A stretch of 64,000 bases of DNA. Source: TM7 phylum sp. oral taxon 349 (GTDB lineage: Bacteria; Patescibacteriota; Saccharimonadia; Saccharimonadales; Saccharimonadaceae). A program made the translations under genes and the position numbers. Of the stretch, positions 9,771-53,094 are shown one piece after another. How positions within the stretch are numbered: the first letter of the stretch is position 1; each line of letters starts with the position of its first letter. The stretch is from the NCBI GenBank assembly GCA_018127705.1, contig CP072328.1, positions 957,751 through 1,021,750 on the forward strand, in the 5' to 3' direction. The notes under the pieces are model-generated. The model was not told the origin of the DNA. It saw only the letters and a program-made list of their open reading frames with translations, and made no database searches.

Positions 9771-9794
9771 CCCCTCATTGCTTAAAGCATGCAG

Positions 9795-11909: not shown

Positions 11910-11930
11910 AGATGTCACTCCTTTAATTAA

Positions 11931-12365: not shown

Positions 12366-12423
12366 AACCTGACCCGACCCCCAAAAGTCATACCTAAAAT
12401 CTAATAATTGGAGGTCGGTTCTT

Positions 12424-13872: not shown

Positions 13873-13954
13873 AAAAAGTTACTTCTTAATCTTTAGCTTC
13901 GGATAGCCCCGACAGTACCACCTTAGCCCTTCAACCACAACACCAAATCCCAGT

Positions 13955-13989
13955 ATATTCCGGTGACTAACGCCACCGGAATATTTTTT
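13955..13989 (+). terminator. Strong hairpin with T-run, + strand
   Basis: A perfect 11-bp stem (ATATTCCGGTG/CACCGGAATAT) with an 8-base loop is followed by TTTTTC. No + strand gene precedes it. It interrupts the only minus-strand open frame here (13879-14070), which is therefore unlikely to be coding. Confidence 0.55.
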
Positions 13990-14145
13990 CTTGGTTAGTT
14001 TGTTACGCTTAGACTTTATATCCCGTATATCTTTGTACACCCTTACTGAAGTTGTGCTTACGCTCTCCAAAAAGGCTAAGCGAGCTGTTTAAACTTCTCT
14101 CGATCCGGCGCATAAAAGCACGCCGTCTACTTTTACTATGATTAT

Positions 14146-15105
14146 CTACTCTTTAGCTTTTTTTAGCAATAAATTATACAAGTCTTGTTCCTTATTAGAT
14201 AATCCATTCTTATCAAGATTGTCTGATACGCTGCTTACCGGATCCTTCACGTCCGGAAGATCAGGGTACTTTGGCAACTTTGTAGTGTAGTCCTTCGCCG
14301 AATAAAGGTTCGCCATCGTGACGTAGTACTCTCTCAAACTATTGTAGTAACTGATCATCGTTTCAGCATACTTCTTCGTATCGCTGTCATCGGAGTTTTT
14401 CATCTTATTCAGAACTTTCGAGCAGTCTGCAATACTTTTATCAAACTCTTCTCCGACTTGAGTGCCGCTCTTATCAAAATACGAAACGTATCCAACAGAT
14501 GTGCTGTTACAAGCTTCTACATAGTTTAGGTAATCCGAATATACATTCACAAACCTCTGCAACAGCTTCTTTGCTTTATTATACTCACTATGGTATTCCT
14601 GGTATAGTTTCTTTACCTCCGGATCGCGCATCGCTTTTGCCTTTTCGAGCTTATTAAAGTGCGCATCCGATTCTGCTAGAACACCGTCCATAGCCTTCTT
14701 AAGTTGACTCGCATCTTTCGTATTTGATATCCCCTTTTTCAGATTGTCGGAATATTTAAAATCAGACATCATTTTAGCGGCATCTTTATAGTCTTGCGTA
14801 CTTGGGCCGCTAAGCAGCATAATCGCAACGATGACACCAATGATCAGCAATACAAGCGCGATACTTCCTCCGATAATCCCCCATAATAGCCCTTTATTCA
14901 TGCCGCTTCTCGGCATCTGGCCAGGCATCATCGGCTGTACTGGTTGCACTGGCTGCAATGGAGCTCCCGGCATTGGCGGCGGCGAATAAGGCTGTCCGCC
15001 TTGTGGTACCGGCGGCTGGCCGTTTGTCGGCTGCGTAGGCGCTGGAGGCATCTGCGGTGTTGGCGGTGGTGTCTGTGGCATTGGTGGTGTTGGCTGGTTA
15101 TTCAT
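14146..15105 (-). CDS. Membrane-anchored protein with Pro-rich cytoplasmic tail
   Basis: 319 residues. The first 65 residues are a Pro/Gln/Met-rich low-complexity tail, followed by a single membrane helix (about 72-97, LLWGIIGGSIALVLLIIG) and an extracytoplasmic helical domain rich in Lys, Asp and Tyr. The same plan (Pro-rich tail, one or two membrane segments) recurs at 56287 and 59592 and may be a lineage habit. A purine-rich AAGGGGAAA precedes the ATG. The protein lies just downstream of pnp in the same direction. The function is unknown; the helical exterior could bind a partner at the cell surface. Confidence 0.75.
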   Translation of the reverse strand: MNNQPTPPMPQTPPPTPQMPPAPTQPTNGQPPVPQGGQPYSPPPMPGAPLQPVQPVQPMMPGQMPRSGMNKGLLWGIIGGSIALVLLIIGVIVAIMLLSGPSTQDYKDAAKMMSDFKYSDNLKKGISNTKDASQLKKAMDGVLAESDAHFNKLEKAKAMRDPEVKKLYQEYHSEYNKAKKLLQRFVNVYSDYLNYVEACNSTSVGYVSYFDKSGTQVGEEFDKSIADCSKVLNKMKNSDDSDTKKYAETMISYYNSLREYYVTMANLYSAKDYTTKLPKYPDLPDVKDPVSSVSDNLDKNGLSNKEQDLYNLLLKKAKE

Positions 15106-15193
15106 ATTTCCCCTTACCTATATTGTTTTAGCTTATTATAACAGAATAGCCGGCTACTGTGCACGATTTTTATCGGCATACCACACGAGGTAA

Positions 15194-17317: not shown

Positions 17318-17432
17318 ATTCAGAGCTCCTTTCTTGTAGCAGAAGAGTAACAGGTGTAAACTTTGCATGATCCGCCCGAAAGGCAAAGGGCAAAATTTAT
17401 ATCCATCACTTTCTGCCAGTTACTATACTCCT

Positions 17433-17438
17433 ATTATA
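17433..17438 (-). promoter_or_regulatory. -10 box of pnp
   Basis: TATAAT on the minus strand about 115 bases upstream of the pnp ATG. No convincing -35 box is seen at the right distance. Confidence 0.45.
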
Positions 17439-17528
17439 TCGCACTCACCGCGTATCTGCTACAATGAGTTGTAACGAATGAACATCCGTTCCTCTGGTTA
17501 TCATCACTAAAAAAACCAAGGAGAATCT

Positions 17529-18008
17529 ATGGAATACTACACCGGACGGCGCATTAATGTCCGCGCCATCATCTATAAAGATGGTAAACTACTTGCTGTT
17601 AAACACAAGCATGGTGACAACATATCACACTATTACGCTGTACCCGGCGGTGGGCTTGATCCGCAAGAATCGCTGATCGACGGATTAGCACGCGAGCTAC
17701 ACGAAGAAACAGGCATAGACGCCGTCATTGGCAATCTATTATTTATCCAGCAATTCCCATCTGCGCGTGCTGGTTACGCCGAAGAGCTAGAATTCTTCTT
17801 TGCCATCAAAAACCCTGACAACTTCACCAACATTAACCTTGAGAACACCAGCCACGGTATTAAAGAGCTCGCTGTGTGTGAATTTGTCGATCCTGCTAGC
17901 GTCACGCTCTATCCCGAGTTTCTACAGTCAATTGACCTTGCGGATTATATCAATAACGACCGTCCAGCACTTGTTATTGATAATTTGCATGAAATACATA
18001 AAAACTAG
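17529..18008 (+). CDS. NUDIX hydrolase
   Basis: 159 residues. The NUDIX box is complete: GGGLDPQESLIDGLARELHE followed by ETGI, matching G-x5-E-x7-R-E-[LIV]-x-E-E-x-G-[LIV]. The start follows AAGGAGA and an extended -10 box (TGCTACAAT, 17457-17465). The family cleaves nucleoside diphosphates linked to another group, for example oxidised nucleotides or NDP-sugars. The substrate cannot be told. It is divergent from pnp and convergent with the acetyltransferase gene downstream. It is intact, unlike the NUDIX gene at 13136. Confidence 0.9.
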   Translation: MEYYTGRRINVRAIIYKDGKLLAVKHKHGDNISHYYAVPGGGLDPQESLIDGLARELHEETGIDAVIGNLLFIQQFPSARAGYAEELEFFFAIKNPDNFTNINLENTSHGIKELAVCEFVDPASVTLYPEFLQSIDLADYINNDRPALVIDNLHEIHKN

Positions 18009-18063
18009 CAAAGCCCTCTTTCCGCCGGCATTTTAAGGTACGCGCGCTAATACAGCCGCAAAC

Positions 18064-18732
18064 TTATACTAATTCAACGTTTTCCCGCGCCCACTCTAAC
18101 GCCGCCTCGGTTCTCTTGCGCGCCTCCAGGCTTTTTTGAGTTGGACGGTCGCTGCCCCACCACTGCCGCCATGCCCAGTCTGTCGGATTAAGACACTCTA
18201 AACAGTCCATATGGACGAGCGCGCCATTAACGAACGTCTCATTGCGTTCAGTGTAGACAAGCGCGTAGCCGCTGCGTTCCAGTGCTTTTCGGCTGCCACC
18301 ATTTGGCTGTAGCACTGCCGATTTTATACGATGCAGCCCCAATTGCTCAAATGCGAAATATGTCCGTGCTTTGTGGCACGCACTCGCGATTCCCCTGCCC
18401 CAGTAGCTTGCATCACAGATCACTGAACCACTAACCGCCTGGCGAATATGTTTACGAAGCTCCATATCCGTCAATGCGCTATTGCCGATAAGCCGGCGCT
18501 CATTATCTTCAACCACCCAGATCCCCCACACGCGCGAGGTCCTGTCCTTAATCATCTTGTCATACCACTCTTCCTCAGTTTCTTTCGTCTGCACGCGGTT
18601 TGTCACATATTGAATAACTGAGTGATGTGCAAAACCATCCGCAAACGTCGTCGCCTCTTCGCGCGTAAACGGTGCAAGCTCTAGCTTCAGTCCAGATTCG
18701 GTCGTTAACTTCATGATTGGTCCAAATGCCAT
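18064..18732 (-). CDS. GNAT-family acetyltransferase (copy 1)
   Basis: 222 residues with the RimJ/RimL-type GNAT plan: a strand carrying the query residue stretch RLIGNSALTDMELR, the pyrophosphate-binding turn as WGRGIASACHKARTYFAFEQ, and LHRIKSAVLQPNGGSRKALE before the last strand. These enzymes move an acetyl group from acetyl-CoA to protein N-termini or small molecules. AAGGAG precedes the ATG. A paralogue lies directly upstream; the two share a perfectly identical 77-base 5' end, whereas the rest is only about half identical in protein. Substrate unknown. Confidence 0.88.
   Translation of the reverse strand: MAFGPIMKLTTESGLKLELAPFTREEATTFADGFAHHSVIQYVTNRVQTKETEEEWYDKMIKDRTSRVWGIWVVEDNERRLIGNSALTDMELRKHIRQAVSGSVICDASYWGRGIASACHKARTYFAFEQLGLHRIKSAVLQPNGGSRKALERSGYALVYTERNETFVNGALVHMDCLECLNPTDWAWRQWWGSDRPTQKSLEARKRTEAALEWARENVELV
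18656..18732 (-). repeat. 77-bp direct repeat, copy 1 (5' end of GNAT copy 1)
   Basis: Identical over all 77 bases to 19478-19554. It covers the start codon and about the first 25 codons (MAFGPIMKLTTESGLKLELA and on). Identity stops abruptly at both ends. Confidence 0.95.
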
Positions 18733-18873
18733 AATGCACTCCTTACGCTATAAATACATTTGTATTATACACTATCTCTATACGACACGCCGCATACAAA
18801 AATGTACATACATAATTTCGCCGTCTACGACCATTACTTTCCAGCGCTTATACACCTTACGCGTCACCCACGC

Positions 18874-19554
18874 CTAGGGGAGCACAACGTGCTCACGCGA
18901 CCACGCCAACGCCGCTTCCGTCTTCTTACGTGCCTGTAAATTTTTACGTGGCGGACGATCATCACCCCACCACAAGCGCCATGCCCAATCCGCCGGGTTG
19001 AGACACTCAAGCATATCTTCATGAACATAATGTCCATCAATAAACTGAAAATTTCGCTCAACATATACATGAGAGTATCCTACTTTATCAAGCGCTCGTC
19101 TGCTCGCAGTGTTTTCCTGTGCAACCGCCGACCTTAGCCTAACTAGCCCCAGTTGCTCAAATGCATACCACGTACGAGCATAGTGCGCTGCACTTGCAAT
19201 ACCTCTACGCCAGTAGCTGTTATTAGTTAGAGTAATACTCGTAGAGCCCTGTGTAATATTACGCTGAGTTGGTACCAAAGGGCTAATTTCATTTATCTCT
19301 GTGTAGCCAATAAGTTTCCTCTTATCACGCTCAACAACCCAGACGCCCCACAGCATCACATTGCTCTCTTTCGACCTCTTGTCAAACCACTCTTGCTCCA
19401 TCTCTGCCGTTACCGGCAGCATGCCATTATATTGGTTGGTGCTCTGTTTTTGAAACCCTGCGATAAAAACTAACACTTCTTCGCGCGTAAACGGTGCAAG
19501 CTCTAGCTTCAGTCCAGATTCGGTCGTTAACTTCATGATTGGTCCAAATGCCAT
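18874..19554 (-). CDS. GNAT-family acetyltransferase (copy 2)
   Basis: 226 residues, a tandem paralogue of the downstream gene. Shared motifs are SYWRRGIASAAHYARTWYAF (acetyl-CoA binding turn) and CLECLNPxDWAW-type C-terminal sequence, here MLECLNPADWAWRLWWGDDR. The two proteins are close to half identical after the first 26 residues, which are fully identical. Duplication followed by divergence is clear; the conserved 5' segment suggests gene conversion or selection on that segment. Substrate unknown. Confidence 0.88.
   Translation of the reverse strand: MAFGPIMKLTTESGLKLELAPFTREEVLVFIAGFQKQSTNQYNGMLPVTAEMEQEWFDKRSKESNVMLWGVWVVERDKRKLIGYTEINEISPLVPTQRNITQGSTSITLTNNSYWRRGIASAAHYARTWYAFEQLGLVRLRSAVAQENTASRRALDKVGYSHVYVERNFQFIDGHYVHEDMLECLNPADWAWRLWWGDDRPPRKNLQARKKTEAALAWSREHVVLP
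19478..19554 (-). repeat. 77-bp direct repeat, copy 2 (5' end of GNAT copy 2)
   Basis: Partner of 18656-18732, with no mismatch. Confidence 0.95.
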
Positions 19555-19591
19555 TATCGTCTCCCTGTTTCAAGTAATTGAATATGATCTT

Positions 19592-20161
19592 TTACGCTTC
19601 GCCTAAATCAATATCTATCACCTTATATTTATGCACGTACTCAATCCGTGTTAAACCAAACTGCCGCACCATTGTTGTCTCAGCTGGGTACGTATGACCA
19701 TGCAGTAGTAACTTTGGCGGCGTACGCTCTATATACGTACGCAAGCCGTCAAATCCTTGATGCGCCAATTCTTCCTCATCGTTGATGCCGCGCGGCGGAC
19801 AATGCGTTAAGAACACGTCAACTGGCGGCATACCTGCAAGCAGCTCACGTGCTTCTTGCTGTGTATACATAATTGCGTCAGGATTTTCTTTATAACGAAC
19901 ACACCCCTGGAAACCGCCAAAAGACACACCACGCCATTGCCATACGTTGAGATGCATATTAACAATCCCAAACTCATTCATATACGTACCGCTACAGTGA
20001 TTGCCATACACGCCAATCTTTGGCGTAGTAACACGCTCTAACCCGATAAGCTGCGAGCGATCCAAATCACCTAGTGTCATCACGATATCTATAGCATGTT
20101 CAGCAACAAACTGCGGGTAATCTAGTTGAGGATTTGTGTCAGCGATTGCAAGTATCTTCAT
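19592..20161 (-). CDS. Calcineurin-like metallophosphoesterase
   Basis: 189 residues from the ATG at 20161, chosen because TATAAT ends six bases upstream, the leaderless layout seen for many genes here. Motifs follow the family order: MKILAIADTN, MTLGDLD, VYGNHC, FLTHCPPRG and LLHGHTYP. The first motif normally is D-x-H; here the His position is Asn, so one metal site may be altered. The YfcE/YmdB-like superfamily hydrolyses phosphodiesters or phosphomonoesters. It lies upstream of the GNAT pair in the same direction. Substrate unknown. Confidence 0.85.
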   Translation of the reverse strand: MKILAIADTNPQLDYPQFVAEHAIDIVMTLGDLDRSQLIGLERVTTPKIGVYGNHCSGTYMNEFGIVNMHLNVWQWRGVSFGGFQGCVRYKENPDAIMYTQQEARELLAGMPPVDVFLTHCPPRGINDEEELAHQGFDGLRTYIERTPPKLLLHGHTYPAETTMVRQFGLTRIEYVHKYKVIDIDLGEA

Positions 20162-22315: not shown

Positions 22316-22543
22316 ATACTAAGAGAATGGCTAAAATTATTGGATATTTATGGGTAAATAGTAATACAATACTAACCGCTCTGAAGCTTTAATGGTTATT
22401 CATTAGCTATTTATACCGAGCTTCGCTCGGTATATCTACTAAACGAGACATACAGAGACATCTCCTTATAGAATTAGTTGCTACTATATCTAATTTTACT
22501 AGGGTGTTCCGTTTTAGTTTAATGTACCGAGAGTAAGCCCCTC

Positions 22544-23548: not shown

Positions 23549-23598
23549 CTTGAGTTTCCGCAAATTTTCACAGCACTCCTAATATCGCCTATACCTAA
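23549..23598. repeat. 50-bp inverted repeat, left arm
   Basis: Matches the reverse complement of 25164-25213 at 46 of 50 positions. It lies just outside the IS4-type element. It derives from the 5' end of the IS5-type element in opposite orientation. Confidence 0.85.
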
Positions 23599-23609
23599 AC
23601 AAGTAAGTT

Positions 23610-25162
23610 CTCAAAAAACGCCAAAATATATAAGGAATCATTTCCCTTTTTTGATACGTTGAATTGCAATATCAACATAAGAATCAATTCGATGATTTTT
23701 AAATAAATTTGAACAATAGCTCTAATAACCGGCGTACTTTAATAGGTTCCATAGAAATTGAGCTTTATGGGACGTATCCTTTTAATCCTAATCTTTTAAA
23801 TTTAAATTTAAATGATAAACTTAAAACAAAGCTGCCGGTATGTGGGACGCCTGGTTCTAAACCAAAGCCTAACTCCCTCTTTTGCGTATGAGAGTATTCG
23901 TACAATGCCTTTTGCTAGCCGGTAGTAACAAAAAAATACGTTTTCTTTCACAGGGTTTGCTGTCTTTATAACTAAAACCCGTATTGTATTGTATTTGTCT
24001 CTGGCGCCATGGATATCATGGCAAGAAACGCCATACACAAACTAATATAAAAGTTAAGCGCGTTTATGGCGCGAAGCTTTCTGACACGAAAGTTTTCAAA
24101 TTGAAACATCTGTTTTTTGCAACGGAAATACTCCTCAATTTTCCATCGTGAAAAATAGATGCGCGCAACATGGACAACATCGTCCTTTGACTTGATCTCT
24201 TTGTTAGTGGCAAGCATCATCGGATGTTCTGTGATGCCATAAATAAGAACGAGATTTATATTCTTTCTGGAGGCTGTAATCCGTACTCTGGCATGCGACA
24301 GATAGGCATCATGATCTTTCCCTTTATAGAATACTCCTGTTTTTATTTTACCCTTACGACGGTCGCGAAGCTGCGTAGCTGGAATCCATTTGTTATGATA
24401 AAGGAGTTTCCTTTTAGAAGTAAGTCGGATGACATAATCTTGTTTTAATTTGTCGAGCTTAATAAACATTTTATTATCATCGTAGCCGCGATCCATAGCA
24501 AAAACAGCATTTTCGAAGAGAGCGGCAGCCTGTTCTATCGCTTGAAAAGTAATAACATTGGCAGACTTATAATTCTTCTCGTAAGAAGAATGTATCCTGG
24601 AAAAAATACTGACAGGGTGGTTGCCGGAAGTAAGAACACAGGCTTCAGTAACATGATAGCCTTTCTTGTAAACGCTTTTGGTTGAAGTGCTAGCGGAACC
24701 GTCCCTGACAACGCCGAGGGCTTCAAATTTATAACCATCTGGCTTTACAATATCACTGTCATCTATATGAACAACCGGTTCTTTAGGAACCCATTGTTTT
24801 ACGATCTGAAGGTAGGGATTTAGAGCCTGCGCGGGAATTCCTTTTTTCAGATGTCCGGAAAGGCGATCAACAATATTTATCTTTTTAGAATTTTCATGCA
24901 GTTGGTCAACTACATCTGTTAGAAGACAACTTCCACTAGCCAGCATGCCATAAATGATGTCAGCGGTAAACTTACGATCGGGTCTTGGCAAATGATTGGA
25001 AATTTTATTTGTAAAACTTAAAATCTTTCTTTTCAGAATATAAGTATTTGATGTAAAATTGGTCATAAGGAATCCTCCTCTTTTTGTTTTATATAGTTTT
25101 TTAAATTAACTTTATTTTATATCAAAAAGGGAAAGGATTCCTTATATTTTGGCGTTTTTGAG
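23610..25162 (-). mobile_element. IS4-family-like insertion sequence
   Basis: About 1.55 kb. The ends are imperfect inverted repeats: left CTCAAAAAACGCCAAAATAT, right (reversed) CTCAAAAACGCCAAAATATA, both continuing with AAGGAATC and TTTCCC. It carries a single transposase gene whose 3' end is frameshifted. It sits exactly between two inverted copies of a 50-bp sequence from another IS. Confidence 0.8.
23808..25066 (-). pseudogene. IS4-family transposase, frameshifted near its C-terminus
   Basis: Frame 1 gives 364 residues with the DDE residues in VVHIDDSDIVK, FAMDRGYDDNKMF and the Y-x2-R-x3-E-x6-K signature YFSRWKIEEYFRCKKQ. It ends at a TAG near 23972. The proper C-terminus (KTANPVKENVFFCYYRLAKG and on to TYRQLCFKF) continues in another frame to 23808. 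The switch lies near the repeated AATAC units at 24000. The catalytic core is complete, so the loss affects only the last 60 residues. It may be a mutation, or less likely a programmed shift. Confidence 0.8.
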
Positions 25163-25163
25163 A

Positions 25164-25213
25164 TTAGGTATAGGTGATATCAGGAGTGCCGTGAAGATTT
25201 GCGGAAACTCAAG
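25164..25213. repeat. 50-bp inverted repeat, right arm
   Basis: Partner of 23549-23598. It forms the left end of the IS5-type element and includes the beginning of its transposase frame. Confidence 0.85.
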
Positions 25214-39613: not shown

Positions 39614-40678
39614 ATGCGAAAGTTTCGATTGAATCAGCGTCGGGTGGCTATAATATGCGCTGTCATATTGGTGGGATTATCAACAGTAACAGTGTTGCGT
39701 CAAAAAGGCGTCTTGTTTGACACTAAGCAAAACGACAGCGCTAACACACATGTCGAGCCGGCAAAGAAGACCAATACTGCTGCGCCGCAACCAAAACAAA
39801 AGGTAGAGCCGGCTACCGACAAGACACAGAATTCGCCTGCACCGCAAGCGAAGCCGGAAGCGTCCGCTATGCCAGCAAACGAGAAAAAAACAAATGAACC
39901 GCAGCTAGAACAACCTAAGCAAACAACAGAGACAAAACAGCCAACTGCAGACACAACCGCACCAACAGCTGAACAGAAGCAAGCGGCGCAAGCAGACGGT
40001 AAAAAATCGGCAGAAAAAACGTCAGAAAAGACAGCCGATACGGGCGCAGCTAAAAAATCAAGTGACGCATTCACGTATACAGCAAGTGCGGGCAGTTCGT
40101 ACACGTTATTTGCACGCAAGGCTATCTCGTCCGTTGTTGCCAATCAGCAACTTCAGGCTAGCACCACACAAACACTGCAGGCTGAGGTAGAGCTGACCAA
40201 TAATGCTGGCTCGCCTCTATTAGACATCGGACAGGCTGTCACAATTTCTCGTGCAAACGTTATCGCAGCGCTGCAACATACTGGCGTAAAAGCGACCACG
40301 CAAAATGCTAGTACAGATTCAGCGGCACAATCGCGCGAGTCTGACAAGTCTAAAGAGAATACACCAGCAAAAACCACGCAACAAACACAAGCCACAGCAA
40401 CGACCGCTGATTATAACGCGACCGCGAACCCTGGCGACTCGTACACATTTCACGCTCGTACCGCTATCGCAAAATATCTGCAGGCAAACAAACGAACGTT
40501 ATCGCCCGAACAACGTGTCGCTGCCGAATCGTATGTGACTGTCGCAGCTGGTTCGCCCTCGCTTGAGATTGGACAAACCGTTGCCATTACCGCAAAAACG
40601 ATCGCAGATGCTGTCGCTCAAGCGAGCTCGCTCTCTACGGACGAGCAAGCAGCATGGGCTCAGTGGGCAACCTCGTAA
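39614..40678 (+). CDS. Membrane-anchored protein with two LysM-like repeats
   Basis: 354 residues. One N-terminal membrane helix (about 10-29) is followed by a long Lys/Thr/Pro/Gln-rich linker (40-150) and two repeats: YTASAGSSYTLFARKAI ... DIGQAVTI and YNATANPGDSYTFHARTAI ... EIGQTVAI. The opening Y-x-[AT]-x-x-G-x-S-Y-T and closing I-G-Q-x-V-x-I resemble LysM, but the middle is longer than usual. LysM domains bind N-acetylglucosamine-containing glycans, so attachment to peptidoglycan is likely. AAGGA precedes the ATG, and a terminator follows. Confidence 0.72.
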   Translation: MRKFRLNQRRVAIICAVILVGLSTVTVLRQKGVLFDTKQNDSANTHVEPAKKTNTAAPQPKQKVEPATDKTQNSPAPQAKPEASAMPANEKKTNEPQLEQPKQTTETKQPTADTTAPTAEQKQAAQADGKKSAEKTSEKTADTGAAKKSSDAFTYTASAGSSYTLFARKAISSVVANQQLQASTTQTLQAEVELTNNAGSPLLDIGQAVTISRANVIAALQHTGVKATTQNASTDSAAQSRESDKSKENTPAKTTQQTQATATTADYNATANPGDSYTFHARTAIAKYLQANKRTLSPEQRVAAESYVTVAAGSPSLEIGQTVAITAKTIADAVAQASSLSTDEQAAWAQWATS

Positions 40679-40723
40679 GAAGTCATCACTGCCATTAGCA
40701 CCAACCCTATTCACGATATACCG

Positions 40724-40760
40724 TCGGCTAGATAGAGACAATCATCTAGCCGATTTATTT
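40724..40760 (+). terminator. Terminator after the LysM-like gene
   Basis: 10-bp stem TCGGCTAGAT/ATCTAGCCGA, 10-base loop, then TTTATTT. Confidence 0.8.
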
Positions 40761-41026
40761 AGATTAGACAAAGGAGTAAACGCTTTGGCGAAGAGCGTAC
40801 CGCCCTACTGGCTCTATATCTTTATCCCTATCCAGTACTACATTGCTACTTAGCAAGTTCTACAACGTCGTCGAACGTCCATCGCAATAAAGTAGCATGT
40901 ATCTGACCAATCAACAGTACACTGTTTACCCGTCCGATAAATTCATAACATATTCACAACAAAACGATGTAATTGCCTTAACGCCGCTTAATGGCGACTT
41001 GATTTCTATAGTTCCTTTTCTTTTTT
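40761..41026. other. Intergenic, nothing firm
   Basis: A weak GC hairpin near 40981-40998 lies downstream of truB on the minus strand. No gene seen. Confidence 0.4.
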
Positions 41027-41764
41027 TCAATTCGTAATACCAAAGTCGCGCAATTGCTGCGCCGCTGCGACGTCGTAATCGGCGATTCTCGTCCGTCGTA
41101 GTTTCTGGCAATATGCACCCGTTCCTAGTGCTACACCGATATCAACCGCCAGACTGCGAATATACGTGCCGCTTGATACGTGCGCGCGAACTTTAAGCTC
41201 TGGGTAGTTGTATGACAGCAGCTCAAGTGCATAAATCTGTACAGTTCGTTCAGGGATCTCAACTTCCTTGCCATCGCGGGCGAGTTTATAAGCCCGCTGA
41301 CCATTAATTTTTATTGCGCTAAAGATCGGCGGACGCTGCTTGATTTCGCCGGTAAATTGCGCGAGCACTGCTTGAACTCGCATAATAGACGGCGCAGCAA
41401 ATCTTTCGATAGAACAGCCTGAACCCCGAGCAAACTCGTCCGTCCGGCGTACAGTTGATTTAGAGGGAATCTCATCTGCATCATACGCCGAAATCTCTCC
41501 TTCCGGATCGCCCGTTGTGCTTATTTGCCCAAGCCTTATTGTCGCTTCGTACACTTTATCAAGTTTTGTATAGCGCATAGCATCTTTGCACGCTTTACCT
41601 GTCACGATGATCATCAAACCTGTCGCAAACGGATCGAGCGTGCCTGTGTGCCCAACCTTTACCTTTTTACCCGCCTGTTCCGACAGCACCCGCCGCAAGC
41701 GCGCTACCACGCCGAAGCTTGTCATGCCAGCCGGTTTGTCTATCAAGATAATACCATCGTGCAT
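41027..41764 (-). CDS. truB: tRNA pseudouridine(55) synthase
   Basis: 245 residues. The opening DGIILIDKPAGMTSFGVVAR and catalytic motif KVGHTGTLDPFATGLM (Asp nucleophile) are unmistakable, followed by KRPPIFSAIKINGQRAY and SSGTYIRSLAVDIG. TruB converts U55 of tRNA T-loops to pseudouridine. The C-terminal PUA-like domain is reduced or absent, as in short TruB forms. A TATACT box ends six bases before the ATG and there is no Shine-Dalgarno. Confidence 0.95.
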   Translation of the reverse strand: MHDGIILIDKPAGMTSFGVVARLRRVLSEQAGKKVKVGHTGTLDPFATGLMIIVTGKACKDAMRYTKLDKVYEATIRLGQISTTGDPEGEISAYDADEIPSKSTVRRTDEFARGSGCSIERFAAPSIMRVQAVLAQFTGEIKQRPPIFSAIKINGQRAYKLARDGKEVEIPERTVQIYALELLSYNYPELKVRAHVSSGTYIRSLAVDIGVALGTGAYCQKLRRTRIADYDVAAAQQLRDFGITN

Positions 41765-41770
41765 GCTACT

Positions 41771-41776
41771 AGTATA
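41771..41776 (-). promoter_or_regulatory. -10 box of truB (leaderless layout)
   Basis: TATACT on the minus strand, six bases before the truB ATG. Confidence 0.5.
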
Positions 41777-41851
41777 CTATAGTTGCTATATTGTAAAATA
41801 TGATATTATAAGCCTGTTCCTTAACAACGCCTATCCGGAAGGGAAGATATC

Positions 41852-42472
41852 ATGACTCCCATGGTCATTGCTATCGCTATCACCGTCATCACCGCCGCAA
41901 TCATCATTGCCTTTTGGGTAACGATGTTCCGTACTTTTCGGCGGAGCTCGCACATCATGCTTTTTATTTGGTGCGCAATTCTGAGCGCAGCCCTGTACGG
42001 CTGCGCCAACCTTGTCTCTCTACGCCTGACTGCACCCACTGTGGCGCAGTCGCTGGCAGCGTCAGGCATTCAGCCCAGGCAGAGCTATGCTCTGTCTGTC
42101 GGAACCAATCGCGACGACAGCCACCAGCCCGTCTGGGCTATCCTTGACCCATCGTCCTACGATGGACGCACTGCGAGGATGCATCTCCATGTGCGTCAGG
42201 GAGATAGCATTCTTACCTGCACTATCCCAGTGCAGCGTCAGAGCATTGACCGCGACGCCGACATCAACCCACCTGCTTCATCGGTCACGTTCTTAATCTA
42301 TAAGAACGCCCCGAGCGGAGTAAAAGCGCGGCACTTCGCTGGCGTGCTCTATGACCAGGCGACTGATTACGGCGGGTGCGTCGGACTCGTCCTAGCCATC
42401 ACAGGACCGGACGTTCACCCGGTCATCGCGCTGAGCGCGCAGGATCGCTCTCGGCTTGAGCGCTCGTCCTGA
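41852..42472 (+). CDS. Membrane protein of unknown function
   Basis: 206 residues. Two N-terminal membrane helices (about 4-27 and 35-57; the second ends near a Cys, LSAALYGCANLV) precede an extracytoplasmic domain of about 145 residues with several strands (ARMHLHVRQGDSILTCTIPV). It begins with a strong GGAAGGGAAG ribosome binding site. The Cys could be a lipobox (YGC), but the preceding first helix makes a classical lipoprotein signal unlikely. It is followed by the GC-rich terminator inside the 113-bp repeat. Confidence 0.7.
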   Translation: MTPMVIAIAITVITAAIIIAFWVTMFRTFRRSSHIMLFIWCAILSAALYGCANLVSLRLTAPTVAQSLAASGIQPRQSYALSVGTNRDDSHQPVWAILDPSSYDGRTARMHLHVRQGDSILTCTIPVQRQSIDRDADINPPASSVTFLIYKNAPSGVKARHFAGVLYDQATDYGGCVGLVLAITGPDVHPVIALSAQDRSRLERSS

Positions 42473-42489
42473 GCTCATCGCTATCGTTA

Positions 42490-42602
42490 AGGAATCCCCG
42501 CCACAACCAGTGGCGGGGTCTTCTCTTTGAACACTTACGTTACTTTATTGCCCAGGAATCCGGAACTGTGCTGGATCGGCAGGCGCCGATGGCGCAACTG
42601 CC
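42490..42602. repeat. 113-bp perfect direct repeat, left copy
   Basis: Identical to 44956-45068. It contains a terminator hairpin and the last 18 codons plus stop of the DHH-like gene whose intact copy lies at 45011. Weak similarity continues a few bases past the end, so the original duplication may have been slightly longer. Confidence 0.97.
42496..42527 (+). terminator. GC-rich terminator
   Basis: 8-bp stem CCCCGCCA/TGGCGGGG, 7-base loop, followed by TCTTCTCTTT on the + strand. Ends the gene at 41852. An identical hairpin lies in the right repeat copy at 44962. Confidence 0.8.
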
Positions 42603-42723
42603 TGTACTGTTTGCCGTATAGATGTAGTGGTATGAGTCCATCATACACATACGATTTATCTTGATACCTAAGCTGGGTTCAGCCAGCTAACCTAGAGTAA
42701 TCCTAACCCATAGATAGATAAGT

Positions 42724-43533
42724 TAATGGTTCAACCCCACCTTACCCTACCTACTTCCTCCCGTAGCAATTTAAGTAACTCATGATACACATCTTCATAT
42801 CTCATGCTATGCCTTATACCTTTATACTTTATATCTAAATTCACATTCTTTGAGGTGAAGATTAAAATGGTCTTTTCTAAGTCCGCGTAGCTTTTAGCTA
42901 GGCGGACTTTAGCAATGCCCCAGAAATTCTCTATACCATTGATATGGTTTTTTAGGATTGTTTTTATTAACGAATTCATTATTACCATGATTTACACGGG
43001 TAGTGACGCTTATATCCCCAGTCAACTAACCCGTCATAACTACGCCAACCATCACTGTAGATAGTACTATTCTAGCTGTACTTTCATTTGTACAATCTGT
43101 TTTAGAGTCTCTTAGGCTAACATGAGGTATAGGTACTAAGTACTATTTGGGTATATACCTTACCATGACGCTTTAATAGACCAAAGACAATAATCTTAGT
43201 CTTTGTTACTAGCTCTACGGAGACTATGTATATCATGTGCGCTACGTACTCTACATGGTCCAAAATAACTTTCATCAATCTCAACTTCGCCAGAGAGTGG
43301 CGAGGTGGCCTCGCAGCGCTTGGCGATAACGGTTCGAATATGCGTCAGAATGCGATTGATTGTATTGCGGTTCACGCCGGTTAAAGAGGCTATTTGAGTA
43401 GCCGTGATATCTTCACAAAATAGCCTAACAGTCTGCCTGGTTTTAGCCTCTGAAATATGTGAACGTTTTAGATACCTATTCCTCATCTGTTATTTAGTAT
43501 AGATGATGGGGTTAAAGTAGGCTTGAACCATTA
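42724..43533 (-). mobile_element. IS1595-family element remnant
   Basis: About 810 bases flanked by inverted ends: TAATGGTTCAACCCCACCTT on the left, and TAATGGTTCAAGCCTACTTT as the reverse complement on the right. It encloses a degraded transposase. Confidence 0.75.
42731..43486 (-). pseudogene. IS1595-family (ISXO2-like) transposase, broken
   Basis: The N-terminal part (QIASLTGVNRNTINRILTHI, an HTH) leads to GEVEIDESYFG with the first Asp. Further on, another frame gives YSDGWRSYDGLVDWGYKRHY with the second Asp, and the last part holds HINGIENFWGIAKVRLAK with the Glu. At least two frameshifts and stops separate them. The HINGIENFW motif is diagnostic for the family. Confidence 0.8.
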
Positions 43534-43549
43534 CATATACTACGCGCAT

Positions 43550-43736
43550 TACCGTACATCACGTACTCGGTATGGTCTAAAGTAGCTTTCATCTATTGCT
43601 CTACTTCGCCAGACAATGGTGAAGTAGACTCGTAGTGTTTAGCTAAACTAGACATAGCGGAACAGTCCTTTCGTAGATGCTAGTTTATTAACCTATATTC
43701 TACTATTTTATGGGCTGTTTTGGTTTAGTTTAGCAG
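43550..43736 (-). pseudogene. Second IS1595-type fragment
   Basis: The minus strand reads AKHYESTSPLSGEVE, matching the same region of the preceding transposase, then breaks. The + strand at 43712-43736 carries GGGCTGTTTTGGTTTAGTTT, an element end that recurs at 52505 and 52581. Confidence 0.6.
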
Positions 43737-43837
43737 ATCAATTTTGTTTCATGCAAACACTTCTCTGTTGTCGATCGCTGGGTCTTGACAGTTTTAATAG
43801 TCCTATAATGAAATTCTCTAACCATTCTAGCGAATCG

Positions 43838-44704
43838 CTAATCAATGCCCCCTGTACAAATTGAGATTTGTTCACTACTAACCTTTAGGTTACTAGTGTA
43901 ATAATCTTGTTTTATACGATCTATAAATGATAGAATTTCAGCTGATTTGACATAATACCCTAGATTAACCATTATTGGCGTACTGGGCATAATATTATAC
44001 CGTGTAGGTATTGTCTCAGTTATTAATGAACCATTAGCAGTATACTGTGGTCCTGCAAACAGATAACCGATAAGAAAAAATCTTGGCGAACCTATATGTA
44101 CAGTTCCTCTCTTATCACTATATCCACTATTATTAAATATATAAATGGGTGAGCCTGATGAACCTGGGAAACACGCCATATCAACTAATCCTATTCCTTT
44201 TTGGTTGAAATCGTTCCGTGGATGGCAAGCTGTAAATCCCTTTCTAAATATAGGAAAATTGTTTACTTGATCCCATAGTCCAATTGGGTAGCCAACCATA
44301 ACTAGCTCTTCTAAAGCGTCTAACTCTTCAAGCTCTTTCTGACTTGGAATTAATTCAGCATCATTTGTAATACAAAAAACTTCTTTATGGTATTCACTTT
44401 TAACTTTTTCGAAAATCGGATTTACATAACAAAAACATATATCTTTATCCTCATGAAAAATCCAATTAGCATCATATTGAATTTTAACATTTCCAGACAG
44501 ATGACCGTTGTTATCTTTTGTATGAACAAGAAAAGTTACTTTCTCATGCTCGTTGTCATTGACTACATGTTTGTTGGTGATAATAACTGTAATGTTACAA
44601 TTTCCTATTTTATAGTTGAAATAGGAACCCGTTCCACACCCCGATTCAGTTTTTAATCTAACTGTGCTGTACATCAACTGTTCCGGAATACTTTCAGGCT
44701 TCAT
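43838..44704 (-). CDS. Trypsin-like serine protease
   Basis: 288 residues, with AGAAGGAG before the ATG. The catalytic triad can be placed: His46 in IITNKHVV, Asp88 in EDKDICFCYV, and Ser183 in FPGSSGSPIY. GYPIGLWD before the nucleophile is also typical of the family. There is no signal peptide or membrane segment, so it should act in the cytoplasm. Stand-alone cytoplasmic trypsin-like proteins of this kind are found in bacterial defence and regulatory modules, but no partner gene is adjacent. Codons are A/T-rich, unlike the flanks, and it lies in a repeat-bounded island, both signs of transfer. Confidence 0.82.
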   Translation of the reverse strand: MKPESIPEQLMYSTVRLKTESGCGTGSYFNYKIGNCNITVIITNKHVVNDNEHEKVTFLVHTKDNNGHLSGNVKIQYDANWIFHEDKDICFCYVNPIFEKVKSEYHKEVFCITNDAELIPSQKELEELDALEELVMVGYPIGLWDQVNNFPIFRKGFTACHPRNDFNQKGIGLVDMACFPGSSGSPIYIFNNSGYSDKRGTVHIGSPRFFLIGYLFAGPQYTANGSLITETIPTRYNIMPSTPIMVNLGYYVKSAEILSFIDRIKQDYYTSNLKVSSEQISICTGGID

Positions 44705-44955
44705 GTTTAAAACTCCTTCTATTTACTTGTAGTACTTTGAGGTTCAAAAATCGTAAAAATATAAGATCAATAAAATCTAATTTGCATATTTCGTATAAAA
44801 TTAGTAGGCAAAATATCTTGTGCAAACCTCTTGAACGGCATTAATATTGAAATTTTAGCGCACCTCTTCCCGATATGCCAAAGGGTATACATATCAATGC
44901 ACTTAACTAAACCGCTCAACCAGCTACACAAATTATACAGGGAATGAATGGCGAT

Positions 44956-45068
44956 AGGAATCCCCGCCACAACCAGTGGCGGGGTCTTCTCTTTGAACAC
45001 TTACGTTACTTTATTGCCCAGGAATCCGGAACTGTGCTGGATCGGCAGGCGCCGATGGCGCAACTGCC
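44956..45068. repeat. 113-bp perfect direct repeat, right copy
   Basis: Partner of 42490-42602, offset 2466 bases. It includes the true 3' end and stop of the DHH-like gene. Confidence 0.97.
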
Positions 45069-46825
45069 GGCTGCGCTGTTTGCTGTGGAAGCGGCGGTAA
45101 CGCAGTCTCAAGCGTGTCCGGCACGGCAGCACCAGACGTGCTGTCATTCGTCGACGGAAGCGGCGGTAATGTCGAAAAGTCCGGCATCGGCGGTAATGGC
45201 GGCGGTGGAGGCAATGTCCCGTCTGTTACCGACGCTGCGCTTAGTGCGCCTGAAAGTGCCGCATCAACAGCAGCGCGTGCACCATCCTGCGTAGATTGCG
45301 GTTCAGTCGCACTTGGCGCAATAGGCACAGGCGGCTGCACTGCTGCCGCGTGATCCGTTGGCGCTGTCATAGCGCCCTGCGCAAGTACATCAGGTACTGA
45401 TGGTTCAGCGTCAGCGTGCGCTATTACGGCATTAAGCGGCGCCTGCGTATTTGGCGCATCGGACGCATACTTACTTTTGCCGTCGTGGCTCAAAATTACT
45501 TTGTTACGGTCATCTTCGGCTGCGCGGCGCGCATCTTCAGCGGCTTGCTCGGTTGTCGCATTGAGCGTGCCGCCAAGTGTCGGTTCAACAACCTCAGGTA
45601 ATTGTGTTTTTGGTGCCTCAATTTTCTCTTGGATAACCGGTTGCGCCGCAGCCTCGTCAAGTGTTTCGTTCGCGCGTGCAATGTCGCGCTGTATATCTTC
45701 AACTGATGGCGCAGCGGACTTATTAGCAGGTGCAACTGCCGGCATCGCAGCTGCTAGCTGTTCAGCAAGCTTTTCTTCCGCTTCTATTGTATCTTTTTTA
45801 TTTAATTCGGCGGATTGCTGCGTATGTTTAGCAAGAACTGCTTCGGCAGCGCTTAAAGCTGCTTGGCTATTTTTCTCATTGATCGCCCGCTTCACTTCGT
45901 CAACGTCGCCCGCCGGCTCATGCGAAATCGCAAGCGTTCCGACGCCGGATTCTTGCGCAGCTTTTTGCGGCGTCTTTGTTTTACTACCGGTTGCCATCTC
46001 CGAAACACGCACCGATTCGCCTTCTTGTGCGTCTTTGCTGCGCGGAGCAGTCTCATCAGCCTGAGCTTTTTTCTCGCCTTCTTCTAATTTAGTTGCAATC
46101 AGCTGCTGGTTTGCGCCCGCCCCCATCAGCGATGCGGCAATTCGCATTACTGCCGAACTGGTTCTACTGTTGCTAAATCGTTCCGTCGCTGCCACAATGC
46201 CCGTCAGAAACGCCGTCGCAATTTGTTCGTCAATCATTTTCTTGTTCTCGCCAACTAGCGCGTCAGCGAGCGCATATAGCAGCTCACTGTAGCCACTTGC
46301 TCGCGGATTACTCCATTCAATCCCGCCCAGGTGCGATGGCTCATCTAGTGAAACTGATGTTACGACGGCGTCGTGCAAAATCCGCCCGTGGCTCTCAAGC
46401 GCATGGTCTAAATCCGCTGTACTGCGTACGCCAATCGCCAACACCGCCTCAACGTTATAATCACCTTGGCTGAAATCCAGATCCTTTTCGTTAATCGTTG
46501 TACGGTACGGCGTAATAAAAATCTTAACCATATCGTCGACGACTTTATAACGCAAGTGGTCGGCTTTTTCTTTATCAAGAGCAATGATAAAGTCCCGCAA
46601 ACTGTCAACAGTACCTTCAAACGTTTTTTCAGGCTGCAAGAACTCTAACGCCGGTGGCACATGGCCGCTGAATACTGCCGTTGCGTGTTTATCAAGTTTA
46701 TTCAACAGCAGCGTGATACCGAGCGCTGCACTGAGCTCGTCGACCGTCGGATTTGTATTGACCGTCACGAGAATATTGCTGTTTTCTTCCAGCTTTTCGA
46801 CGATCTGTGTGAGCGCATCTGCCAT
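45011..46825 (-). CDS. DHH-like fold protein with degenerate active site and long Ala/Pro-rich tail
   Basis: 604 residues, AGGA before the ATG. The first 240 residues resemble DHH/DHHA1 phosphoesterases (NrnA-like): NILVTVNTNPTVDELSAALG sits where active enzymes have ILxxHxxPDxDAxGS, so the metal ligands are mostly lost. The middle has coiled-coil-like Lys/Glu/Ala sequence. The last 150 residues are Pro/Ala/Thr/Gln-rich low complexity ending FRIPGQ. A structural or regulatory role is more likely than catalysis. Its 3' end is the site of the 113-bp duplication. Confidence 0.65.
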   Translation of the reverse strand: MADALTQIVEKLEENSNILVTVNTNPTVDELSAALGITLLLNKLDKHATAVFSGHVPPALEFLQPEKTFEGTVDSLRDFIIALDKEKADHLRYKVVDDMVKIFITPYRTTINEKDLDFSQGDYNVEAVLAIGVRSTADLDHALESHGRILHDAVVTSVSLDEPSHLGGIEWSNPRASGYSELLYALADALVGENKKMIDEQIATAFLTGIVAATERFSNSRTSSAVMRIAASLMGAGANQQLIATKLEEGEKKAQADETAPRSKDAQEGESVRVSEMATGSKTKTPQKAAQESGVGTLAISHEPAGDVDEVKRAINEKNSQAALSAAEAVLAKHTQQSAELNKKDTIEAEEKLAEQLAAAMPAVAPANKSAAPSVEDIQRDIARANETLDEAAAQPVIQEKIEAPKTQLPEVVEPTLGGTLNATTEQAAEDARRAAEDDRNKVILSHDGKSKYASDAPNTQAPLNAVIAHADAEPSVPDVLAQGAMTAPTDHAAAVQPPVPIAPSATEPQSTQDGARAAVDAALSGALSAASVTDGTLPPPPPLPPMPDFSTLPPLPSTNDSTSGAAVPDTLETALPPLPQQTAQPAVAPSAPADPAQFRIPGQ

Positions 46826-46914
46826 ATGTTTCCTATTTTTGTTTTATTTTATACGATTATTCACGTGCCACTATACCATAAGTAGTTTGTAATAGTCAAG
46901 TGGTTGCCACCACT

Positions 46915-46943
46915 TTACAAACAGAGGTACTTGCGATATAATC
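46915..46943 (+). promoter_or_regulatory. Promoter of rpsT
   Basis: TTTACA (46915-46920), 17-base spacer, TATAAT (46938-46943), then a leader of about 40 bases with AAAGGAG before the ATG. Confidence 0.85.
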
Positions 46944-46990
46944 TAACATTGATCGTAAATAGCAAGCAACAACAGAGGTAAAGGAGCCTT

Positions 46991-47380
46991 ATGCCACTCA
47001 TCAAATCAGCCATTAAACGCATGAAACAGACCGCTAAACGCCGCGAACGAAATCTCGCTATCAAGCGCGATGTTAAGCTGGCAACCAAAGCATTTCTCGC
47101 TAATCCAAGCGCTGAGAGTTTGAGTAAAGCACAGAGTGAGCTAGATACCGCTGTCAAAAAGGGTTTGTTGAAGAAAGGTACCGTAAGTCGCCGCAAAGCT
47201 GCACTCGTTAAGGTTGCGAAAGCTGCCGGCGTTAAGCCGACTGCAAAAAAGACGACAAAGGAAGCACCTGTTGCTAAACCAACCGCAAAGAAACCTGCAG
47301 CAAAAGCAAAAACGGCTACAAAGACAGCAGCCACCAAGCCAGCTGCAAAGAAGACGAAAAAAGCTGACGCGAAAAAATAA
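46991..47380 (+). CDS. rpsT: 30S ribosomal protein S20 with long basic tail
   Basis: 129 residues; typical S20 is about 85-90. The core (MPLIKSAIKRMKQTAKRRER through KGLLKKGTVSRRKAAL) matches S20, which stabilises 16S rRNA from the bottom of the small subunit. The C-terminal 45 residues are a Lys/Ala/Thr-rich, histone H1-like extension (PAAKKTKKADAKK). It has its own promoter and terminator. Confidence 0.93.
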   Translation: MPLIKSAIKRMKQTAKRRERNLAIKRDVKLATKAFLANPSAESLSKAQSELDTAVKKGLLKKGTVSRRKAALVKVAKAAGVKPTAKKTTKEAPVAKPTAKKPAAKAKTATKTAATKPAAKKTKKADAKK

Positions 47381-47413
47381 CAACATAGTATTCAACCGCA
47401 GCATCAACGACAG

Positions 47414-47455
47414 CTCGCCCGGAGAGACTACTCACTTCTCTCCGGGCGAGTTTCG
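47414..47455 (+). terminator. Terminator after rpsT, overlapping the 3' end of holA
   Basis: 13-bp perfect stem CTCGCCCGGAGAG/CTCTCCGGGCGAG with an 11-base loop, then TTTCG. The right arm encodes the last residues of the convergent holA gene, so the two genes share it. Confidence 0.75.
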
Positions 47456-48391
47456 TGTGGAAACGCCAAGCACAAACCGGTCAATAATATCCCACGGCGC
47501 TATTGCCAGCGTCTTTGATTGATAGTCTAGTTCTGCTGCAAGCTGTGTTAGCTCACGCACGCTTGCCATAGTGAAATACGGCATGAGCGCCTGTAATTTC
47601 TTGACGACAAACGGATGAATCGCTAAGTCGCTCGCAATGCGCGTAGACGAAACGCCCTCTGTTGTCATTACTGCCGCAAATTGCGCCCATTGCACCCATA
47701 ATAGCGCCATCACCTTGTACGGATCGTCAGCTGCGCGCAATTCACCAAGCGCTTTTTGCACCGCCCGTACATCACGCCGCGCTGCTAATTCCAATATGTC
47801 AAACACCGAGAATTCCCGCGCTGGCGGTAACACTGTTGCAATAACCTCATCCGTTACCGCATCAACGTTTGCAAGCGCTCTTACGGCGTGCGCCAACTGT
47901 AATTGGTCAACTTCCGCTATCCGCGACGTTTCATTCGGTACGAGCGCTCGTGAGACCATATTGGTTGCTTGCGCCCGTGAGATCTCCACGCCCTGCATAC
48001 GCGCCACATCTCGCAGCCACGTTTCCGCCTCTGAGCGCGTACGTTCCGTTAATGGCTCGGCGGCGATGACTTCACCCGCGCGCGCAAGTGTTTTGTATGC
48101 CTTTGTGCGTTTATCGGGTTTTGTCTCAACTAGCACAAGCGTCGTATCAGCACTAACATCACGCGCCCAGTCTCCAAGCTTCGCCCATAACTCCTTATAT
48201 TCAGATAGCTGCCTTAGTACAACGAGCCGCGTTTCGTGGAATAAACTCGTTCCACGCACAATATCCGCCAAACTGTTTAGATTAAGCAGATCTACATCAA
48301 TCGTCTCCGCTCGCACACCAAGCCGCTTCGCAAGCGCCGCGATCTCTTGCCGCACGCGGTATTCATTTGTGCCCGTTATCAGATAAATCAC
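47432..48391 (-). CDS. holA: DNA polymerase III subunit delta
   Basis: 319 residues from a GTG at 48391, which follows TATAAT by six bases (leaderless layout). The N-terminus (MIYLITGTNEYRVRQEIAAL), the SLFHETRLVVLRQLSEYKEL segment and the C-terminal helical collar (LRAADDPYKVMALLWVQWAQ) match the delta family. Delta opens the sliding clamp during loading. Sequence similarity in this family is low, but length and segment order agree. Confidence 0.88.
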   Translation of the reverse strand: MIYLITGTNEYRVRQEIAALAKRLGVRAETIDVDLLNLNSLADIVRGTSLFHETRLVVLRQLSEYKELWAKLGDWARDVSADTTLVLVETKPDKRTKAYKTLARAGEVIAAEPLTERTRSEAETWLRDVARMQGVEISRAQATNMVSRALVPNETSRIAEVDQLQLAHAVRALANVDAVTDEVIATVLPPAREFSVFDILELAARRDVRAVQKALGELRAADDPYKVMALLWVQWAQFAAVMTTEGVSSTRIASDLAIHPFVVKKLQALMPYFTMASVRELTQLAAELDYQSKTLAIAPWDIIDRFVLGVSTRNSPGEK

Positions 48392-51253: not shown

Positions 51254-51490
51254 ACCGACGCCTCTTTTGTCTTATGTTAAAATGACACTTACATCATACG
51301 CCTTTCCTAACAAAAAATCCATAGTTTTAGTTTAATGTACTCAGCACTTCTTATTGCTAGCAAAGTTTGGTATATGTTCGACATACAAGAGACACCCTTT
51401 TCTTTGATTAGTTGTTTTACTGTATAGCTAGAACTAATTTTACTAGGGGGTTTTGGGTTAGGGTAATGTACCCTTTTTTTCAGATGTGAT
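51254..51490. other. Gap with IS-end-like sequence
   Basis: Two copies of a recurring end-like motif lie here: TAGTTTTAGTTTAATGTAC (51322-51340) and, on the same strand, a GT-rich version starting at 51446 preceded by CTAATTTTACTAGGG, the same word as at 22490. Confidence 0.5.
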
Positions 51491-51874
51491 TTATCTAACA
51501 ATCTTAAATAATGCGCATGCCGCAACTACTATTAGTATTGAAATAGATATAGTAGCTACTACCATATCCAAAATAATGCAGGCATTATAAAAATACGGAT
51601 GCACCGTTTTTAGCTTTACTATCTTTAGCTCTAGATTCTCACCTTTGTACGTTCTATTTGCGACATATTCAAAGTAATCAAAGAATGTCTTTGCGTGAAG
51701 TAGTGATCCAAGAAAATCTGCGCCGTTCGTATCCGCTTTTTTCGCACTATCTGCGATAGGATCGGAAGATATAGGTTCTTCTGCAGTAGCAGTAACTTTC
51801 GCGCTATTGCTAACAGATGGCTTATCTGGGCTTTGCTCGATGATGTCTTCGTACTGCTCTGTCCGCTTACTCAC
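51491..51874 (-). CDS. Membrane protein paired with the ImmA/IrrE peptidase
   Basis: 127 residues. Polar, acidic N-terminal half, a central region with FDYFEYVANRTYKGENLELK, and one or two membrane segments at the end (ACIILDMVVATISISILIVV). The ATG overlaps the end of the peptidase gene by eight bases, so the two are translated together. No family recognised; it could be a membrane partner or substrate. Confidence 0.65.
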   Translation of the reverse strand: MSKRTEQYEDIIEQSPDKPSVSNSAKVTATAEEPISSDPIADSAKKADTNGADFLGSLLHAKTFFDYFEYVANRTYKGENLELKIVKLKTVHPYFYNACIILDMVVATISISILIVVAACALFKIVR

Positions 51875-52391
51875 CGCTCAGCAATCCCAAATTCTCCACC
51901 CTATAATATGCTGCCGATCTAGATACATTAAATATGCTCGCCAGATCTTCAATGTCGCGACTTTCTTTCCATGCGCGCTCTACGAGCGCTCTTGGCATCA
52001 ACAAAGCGGATGAAAGCATATTGGCTTGTATCTCTTTGTATAAATCGTTTTCACCATACTCAGAAAGTTTCTTGCGCCATTCAATAAATGATTCTTTTCC
52101 ATCGTCATGAAGTAAAAGATGCGCAACCTCATGGGCTATAGAAAAACGCTGGCGTTTTGGCTCATCATCTCTTGAAATTTGGATTATATATCGCGCAGAG
52201 TCGACATCTCTTTTTATACGAGCAGAGATAGTTTGTGGGTTAAACGTCACTTCTTCGACTTCACAACCAAAGAACTGAGCTAGCTTGACCGCATCGACAG
52301 CCCCCGGTTCGCTGTCGTTAAGTCCCGCATCCTTCCTAACTTTTTCTGCTAAGTCTTCTATTGTACCCGGAGATATGTAGCGTGTCGTCAT
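51867..52391 (-). CDS. ImmA/IrrE family metallopeptidase
   Basis: 174 residues with the zinc motif HEVAH in RFSIAHEVAHLLLHDD and a downstream helix with Glu/Asn (EIQANMLSSALLMPRALVER). Such peptidases cleave phage or ICE repressors (ImmA) or DdrO-like repressors (IrrE) to switch on mobile elements or stress genes. A Shine-Dalgarno (AAAGGTGG) precedes the ATG. No HTH repressor is adjacent; the partner gene codes for a membrane protein. Confidence 0.85.
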   Translation of the reverse strand: MTTRYISPGTIEDLAEKVRKDAGLNDSEPGAVDAVKLAQFFGCEVEEVTFNPQTISARIKRDVDSARYIIQISRDDEPKRQRFSIAHEVAHLLLHDDGKESFIEWRKKLSEYGENDLYKEIQANMLSSALLMPRALVERAWKESRDIEDLASIFNVSRSAAYYRVENLGLLSGE

Positions 52392-53094
52392 GTTGTTACC
52401 ACCTTTATATTTTTAATTGTAACAAAGTTATAAAGCTTGACACAATAAGTGCAGTGCTTAGGATTCATTCAACTAACCCATAACAACCACTCTCAAAGGG
52501 ATTTGTTAAACTAAACCGTACCAGCCCATAAATAGTAGGATATAGGTTAGAAAATAATAAACTAGTACTCTACGAAAGGGCTGTTCCGTTTTAGTTTAGC
52601 GAATCCTCAACCAGCTACAAGACTTATGTAAAGAATGGATGGTATAAGAGCCAACCATTCAGAGTTATTTAAAGATCCATTAACATATCTAAAGTTTACG
52701 CTTGTTCCATTTTAGTTGACTGTACCTAAGGTCTAATATAAAGAAGAAACTCCGACAGATATACGCTGATACGCAGCGTCCAATCTTGCAGAAATAGTTC
52801 TTATTCTGAAGATCATATCTTAGAGCACCTACTTTGCGTTACGCCATAGTTCAAGGCTCAGCTATTTGCCCCAACAACCTTAGCCCATAACGTATTCAGC
52901 ACTTCTTATGCTCTTACGTACTATACTTAGTATCAGATGAACCACTAGCTAGCTCACTGCTAAACTTTGCATGATAGGTATAGAGACGCCTTCTCTTGTA
53001 ATAAATTAGTTGGTGTTATTGCTTATGCATACGTCAATCTACTTTACTAGATGTTTTGCTAAGTTATTGTACCGCAATTATCGCTGCGCAAGTG
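52392..53094. other. Region of IS-end debris between the ImmA pair and polA
   Basis: At 52505-52595 lies a segment matching the reverse complement of 43655-43735: GTTAAACTAAACC at one side and CTGTTCCGTTTTAGTTTAGC at the other, around AATAGTAGGATATAGGTTAG. A further end-like motif is at 52701-52726. The words AAGAGCCAACCATT (52648) also occur at 26376. No gene is intact. These look like solo ends or small internally deleted elements. Confidence 0.6.

Follow-up and report, generated by a model that had tools for sequence, protein, structure and literature searches.

How did an AT-rich stretch of DNA carrying a protease gene come to lie between two exact copies of a gene end, with both adjacent genes keeping their 3′ ends? 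A repeat search of the window (the whole 64,000-nucleotide stretch analyzed, bases 957,751–1,021,750 of a single 1,021,750-bp contig) returned an exact 113-bp direct repeat at positions 42490–42602 and 44956–45068 (100% identity, spacing 2466), and a search of the whole genome (one contig, 1,021,750 bp) placed this sequence at these two sites only. The 2,353-bp insert between the copies has a G+C content of 36.4%, as compared to 50.9% in the flanks. The right copy contains the final 58 bases of the ORF at 45011–46825 on the minus strand (18 codons, the stop, and one base). The repeat comprises a hairpin, located between two convergent genes, and the last 18 codons and stop of a DHH-like gene. 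The hairpin, detected on the minus strand over 65 nt, folds at −24.9 kcal/mol (z −3.3), and none of 200 shuffled sequences folded equally well. A consensus scan scored both copies as terminator-like on the plus strand, the 2 sites in 3 kb being no excess over the shuffle mean of 2.1. The initial annotation had described identical copies at these positions, a terminator hairpin and the 3′-terminal 18 codons and stop of the DHH-like gene within them, and approximately 2.4 kb of AT-rich DNA in between, all of which is borne out.

On the left side, ORF206 (41852–42472, plus strand) points toward the left copy, which holds a hairpin at 42496–42518 and a relic of the DHH-like 3′ end; on the right side, the intact DHH-like gene (45011–46825, minus strand, 604 aa) finishes in the right copy, where its own 3′ end accompanies the hairpin. 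The same hairpin thus ends both genes, and because the repeat is a terminator common to two convergent genes joined to the DHH-like 3′ end, both neighbors retain their ends. ORF206 had no family match in Pfam, NCBIfam, or PHROGs. The name “DHH-like” from the initial annotation is kept here for a weak assignment, since PF01368 scored 22.1 bits against a cut-off of 28.1 and the NrnA profile fell far under its cut-off. The gene is present in 58 of 60 genomes, own genome counted, and lies adjacent to truB in all 20 relatives fetched (11 from the genus and nine from the family), at distances of 21–2400 bp. The interval between the two genes varies in length and content among these relatives, without such repeats; in eight of the 20 it holds a gene that, by its N-terminal motif, we take to resemble a PIG-L/LmbE deacetylase.

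In the closest relative, G009, whose DHH protein is 93% identical, the locus has one repeat copy and one hairpin, and the insert is absent. This matches the earlier prediction of an empty site with a single 113-bp copy, in the sole relative testable at the DNA level, and supports an insertion. ORF206 is split over two frames in G009 and is therefore probably broken there. When the window was chained with 80 kb of G009, with which it is collinear, 14 gaps were found; the flanking blocks overlap in G009 at the insert only (−123, i.e., 123 bases), and the other 13 gaps display no such overlap. A 4-kb insertion relative to G009 (91 bp there) is occupied by the gene for a repeat-rich 1317-aa protein at 5783–9736. 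Near truB, no further copy of the DHH 3′ end was found in any of the 20 relatives fetched, all of which keep this gene order; applied to the window as positive control, the same test does find one. The initial annotation had named a state in which all relatives carry both repeats as the case that would speak against it, and none of the 20 does; its suggestion of a cargo hotspot with flanking repeats is unsupported by the same count, and a recurrent repeat-flanked hotspot at this site was rejected. Across the genus, two copies were seen in one of 13 genomes (own), a weak test because nine of the 13 gave no DNA match whatsoever. The DHH-end pattern had 0 matches in viral contigs.

The left part of the insert is occupied by debris of mobile elements. 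An IS1595-family copy with broken transposase frames lies at 42715–43542 on the minus strand, with inverted arms at 42724–42747 and 43510–43533. Its match to NF033547 (E 3e-11) is under the cut-off and covers an N-terminal piece only; together with other IS1595 copies elsewhere in the genome, this upholds the earlier report of IS1595 debris. The copy is a mosaic, old-type on the left and young-type on the right: positions 42724–42944 are 89% identical to an old copy (L037) and 69–70% to three young copies, whereas positions 42945–43530 share 99% identity with the young copies and 69% with L037. At 43553–43645 comes another piece of old type, which matches part of L037 at 87%. The simplest story that the sequence suggests is that a young IS1595 inserted in an old copy and that recombination between them deleted the intervening part; the mosaic would then show a trace of recombination between IS copies within the insert. 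What resembles a complete insertion sequence is located elsewhere in the window at 23549–25213, in an insertion relative to G009, with 50-nt inverted ends (92%) 1.6 kb apart.

Beyond the IS1595 pieces, a MITE-like repeat of approximately 100 bp at 43637–43740 recurs at three further places in the genome (75–81% identity), one of them at 52500–52603 of the window. A 37-bp stretch near the right copy (44915–44951) is 78% identical to 52606–52642, which adjoins another MITE-like copy and falls in another AT-rich insertion relative to G009, at 51330–53087 (22 bp there). This second insertion, which has the MITE-like copy in common with the protease insert, carries an IrrE-like (Peptidase_M78) gene at 51867–52391. 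By eye, a stretch resembling an element end recurs at 22484–22528, 51428–51472, 52586–52605, and 52706–52727, and homology to G009 restarts at 22536, immediately past the first of these. A 14-base pattern beside the right copy had 14 matches genome-wide at up to 2 mismatches, two of them exact, as compared to 9 for the reversed control. A promoter scan found 8 promoters in the insert where 7.6 were expected.

The cargo proper is a gene for a trypsin-like serine protease (43838–44704, minus strand, 288 aa), as had been annotated; it scored 29.3 bits against PF13365 (Trypsin_2; cut-off 27.6). It matched the PADLOC profile PDC-S45, a candidate phage defence family, with an E value of 1.8e-90 (residues 1–268 to profile positions 11–287 of 293) and phrog_7688 with an E value of 5.1e-53. 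The His and Asp motifs align with those of three proteins from two plasmids and of two proteins encoded by other phylum genomes; the Ser motif, GSSGSP, is common with the three plasmid proteins, and the two from other phylum genomes have GNSGGP. The three motifs presumably form the triad. Relatives on plasmids comprised 11 records, nine of them with a query coverage of 80% or more; among phages, a single phage gave a match, in two records, over 23% of the query. The protease was found in one of 392 genomes of the order, the own genome, and in four of 379 genomes of a phylum sample, own included. Peptide patterns of the protease confirmed no relative among genome contigs and viral contigs, and seven weak MsrA matches among solved structures (E 0.026 or worse) were taken as chance. 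The gene resembles PDC-S45 candidates in its profile match, serine-protease motifs, and plasmid relatives, and differs in its occurrence in a probable Saccharibacterium, the one genome of the 392 in the order that has it. PDC-S45 is a candidate and not a proven defence system; it is named in print as a PADLOC prediction in one Sinorhizobium prophage (PMC12429752). The protease of the insert may serve phage defence.

The two repeat copies differ in what lies beyond them. By blastn, homology extends past the 113 bp to 42617 (131 columns, 95.4%) because the left copy runs on with a diverged tail of the DHH-like gene. This in-frame continuation (42603–42617, minus strand) corresponds to another allele of the gene end; the frame stays open further while homology fades. 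The left tail reads RQTVQA-VAP, as compared to QQTAQPAVAP in the intact own gene and QQAVQA-AAP in G009. Outside the identical stretch, a one-codon deletion and the V agree with G009, the T agrees with the own gene, and the R agrees with neither. Of 1000 shuffles, 10 equaled the match of the left tail to G009 and 78 equaled its match to the own gene, scores that ignore register. As homology stops at 42617, this evidence amounts to approximately 15 bases. The tail gives good but not decisive indication that the left relic derives either from the gene of another strain or from an earlier form of the own gene.

A lineage-specific gain through recombination driven by homology, with no integrase carried by the insert itself, is the explanation we adopt with moderate confidence. 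It is supported by one copy and no insert in G009, by the placement of the insert between identical copies in the own genome, and by the passage of the left copy into a second in-frame allele. Also in its favor are the overlap at this gap alone among the 14, the single copy in all 20 relatives, the failure to find a recombinase gene within the insert, the recombination between repeats seen in the IS1595 mosaic, and a pair of GNAT genes elsewhere in the window that likewise has a block of identity between diverged copies. DNA of a close relative would have entered carrying its own terminator and DHH-like 3′ end, either as a circle integrated by a single crossover or as a linear fragment with homology at one end and an illegitimate join at the other. 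Recombination of the incoming gene end with the resident copy would have left one copy on each side, and the event would have been tolerated, each neighbor keeping its end, because the repeat is a terminator common to two convergent genes. A stretch of 113 identical bases that gives way to a diverged allele could be the outcome if the resident copy crossed over with a homologous copy on the incoming DNA. In turn, the two copies could recombine with each other, excising the insert in one step and returning the empty site. Among the options listed in the initial annotation, that of a recombination duplicate fits best, as the left copy bears a different allele of the gene tail.

The arrangement is akin to homology-facilitated illegitimate recombination (HFIR), as described in PMC3240628, or single-crossover (Campbell-type) integration, in which one homologous stretch suffices and its duplication is explained without a recombinase belonging to the element. 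Here, too, a homologous stretch is duplicated with distinguishable alleles (113 bp identical, then a short tail of the other allele); the differences are the absence of a ComEC match in the genome and a donor that was not found. Also on the supporting side, linear DNA whose ends are homologous is reported to transform the Saccharibacterium Southlakia epibionticum in a comEC-dependent manner (PMC10633639). As regards a com system for DNA entry, PF03772 (ComEC) had no match in the own genome while 11 of 12 congeners have one, which makes transformation doubtful as an entry route at present; ComEC loss may be later than the insertion, or the DNA may have come by another route. Two of the observations that weigh against a homology-driven gain are, besides these, the shortness of the tail and the inner edge of the right copy, where homology was sought and not seen (598 of 1000 shuffles scored as well). 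Full identity over 113 bp with an abrupt change could also reflect gene conversion.

An alternative that we consider doubtful is a decayed or trans-mobilized integrative element, in which a tyrosine recombinase, since lost or acting from elsewhere, would have inserted a small island where the DHH-like gene ends, with the 113 bp as attL and attR and with gene end and terminator restored. Islands at gene 3′ ends that depend on such recombinases resemble the present locus in the direct repeats of the gene end that bound the insert and restore the gene, and in the empty site of a relative (here G009 only); the AT-rich, foreign-looking cargo and the plasmid relatives of the protease are also consistent with this origin. 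However, no recombinase gene was detected among the frames scanned in the insert, in agreement with the initial annotation, which had seen no integrase inside. The sole PF00589 match of the genome, approximately 58 kb away, is Xer-like (XerC 255.5 and XerD 246.8 bits, both under the equivalog cut-offs), and the sole PF00239 match is a 581-aa protein far from the insert. The latter (L123, G000:C1:287288–287578) has a resolvase domain and is probably the large serine recombinase of another integrated element. A second island with these ends was found neither in the genome nor in the 20 relatives. Attachment sites of integrative elements are usually shorter than 113 bp, and here the long repeat has a diverged extension on one side. 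The earlier option of a trans-mobilized island gained no positive evidence.

Rather improbable, in our estimation, is a history in which the gene end was duplicated locally long ago and the insert DNA gathered between the copies before gene conversion homogenized 113 bp and left the tail unreached. The left tail retains states common with G009, as expected of an old copy, and the two own copies are identical despite 10 mismatches plus gaps between the 113 bp and G009. Conversion-like blocks also occur in the IS1595 mosaic and in a pair of tandem GNAT genes on the minus strand (18064–18732 and 18874–19554). The GNAT genes are near-identical at their start (18656–18742 and 19478–19564, 80 bp at 98.75%) and then diverge, one such gene being present in the compared G009 stretch; as this pair is similar in shape, short identity blocks between diverged copies are not unique to the insert. 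Such a history requires two steps, however, and no sign of a second copy is seen in G009 or 19 other relatives.

A misjoin that duplicated the 113 bp during assembly is very unlikely: an exact repeat flanking a strain-specific insert is a known warning sign and estimated contamination is 2.23%, but the genome is a single contig, the repeat goes on in diverged, in-frame form, the insert contains IS and MITE-like copies of the genome's own families, and spaced repeats of this sort are scarce (in 461,750 bp, one further non-tandem pair that is not within a repetitive gene). This last figure comes from a direct-repeat scan of 461,750 of the 1,021,750 bp (at least 35 bp, at least 88% identity, spacing 200–20,000), which printed six rows: the 113-bp repeat, the GNAT pair, one pair inside a long repetitive protein gene, and three from one short tandem array. 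Repeat-flanked inserts as a general feature of the genome were rejected on this result, and 80,000 bp of G009 yielded none at the same thresholds. Target-site duplications are usually short and of fixed length, and this origin was rejected, the 113 bp being too long, the homology continuing in diverged form, and inverted pairs in 40000–48000 being absent from the outer ends of the insert save for the repeat's own hairpins.

Most likely, the locus represents a single insertion that arose by recombination and carries a candidate defence gene, ordinary in kind and no new type of mobile element. New here are the terminator and gene-end nature of the repeat, the allele in the left copy, the PDC-S45 match, and the IS1595 and MITE-like debris from the genome's own families; literature searches, which were not directed at the exact locus, returned no paper on this island. 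A far-reaching generalization, to which we give little credence, is that shared terminators of convergent genes serve as landing pads, such that small defence cassettes, each with its own copy of the terminator and gene end at the site, would enter and exit by homologous recombination alone and exchange cargo integrase-free.

For the organism, a homology-driven gain would mean that a streamlined genome acquired a candidate defence gene next to a gene that is widely retained, with neither neighbor harmed. The insert offers a precise, reversible junction to seek in strain-level data. As a single case it represents ordinary genome plasticity; should such cassettes with flanking repeats turn up repeatedly, they would help to account for the turnover of cargo in genomes nearly lacking integrases.
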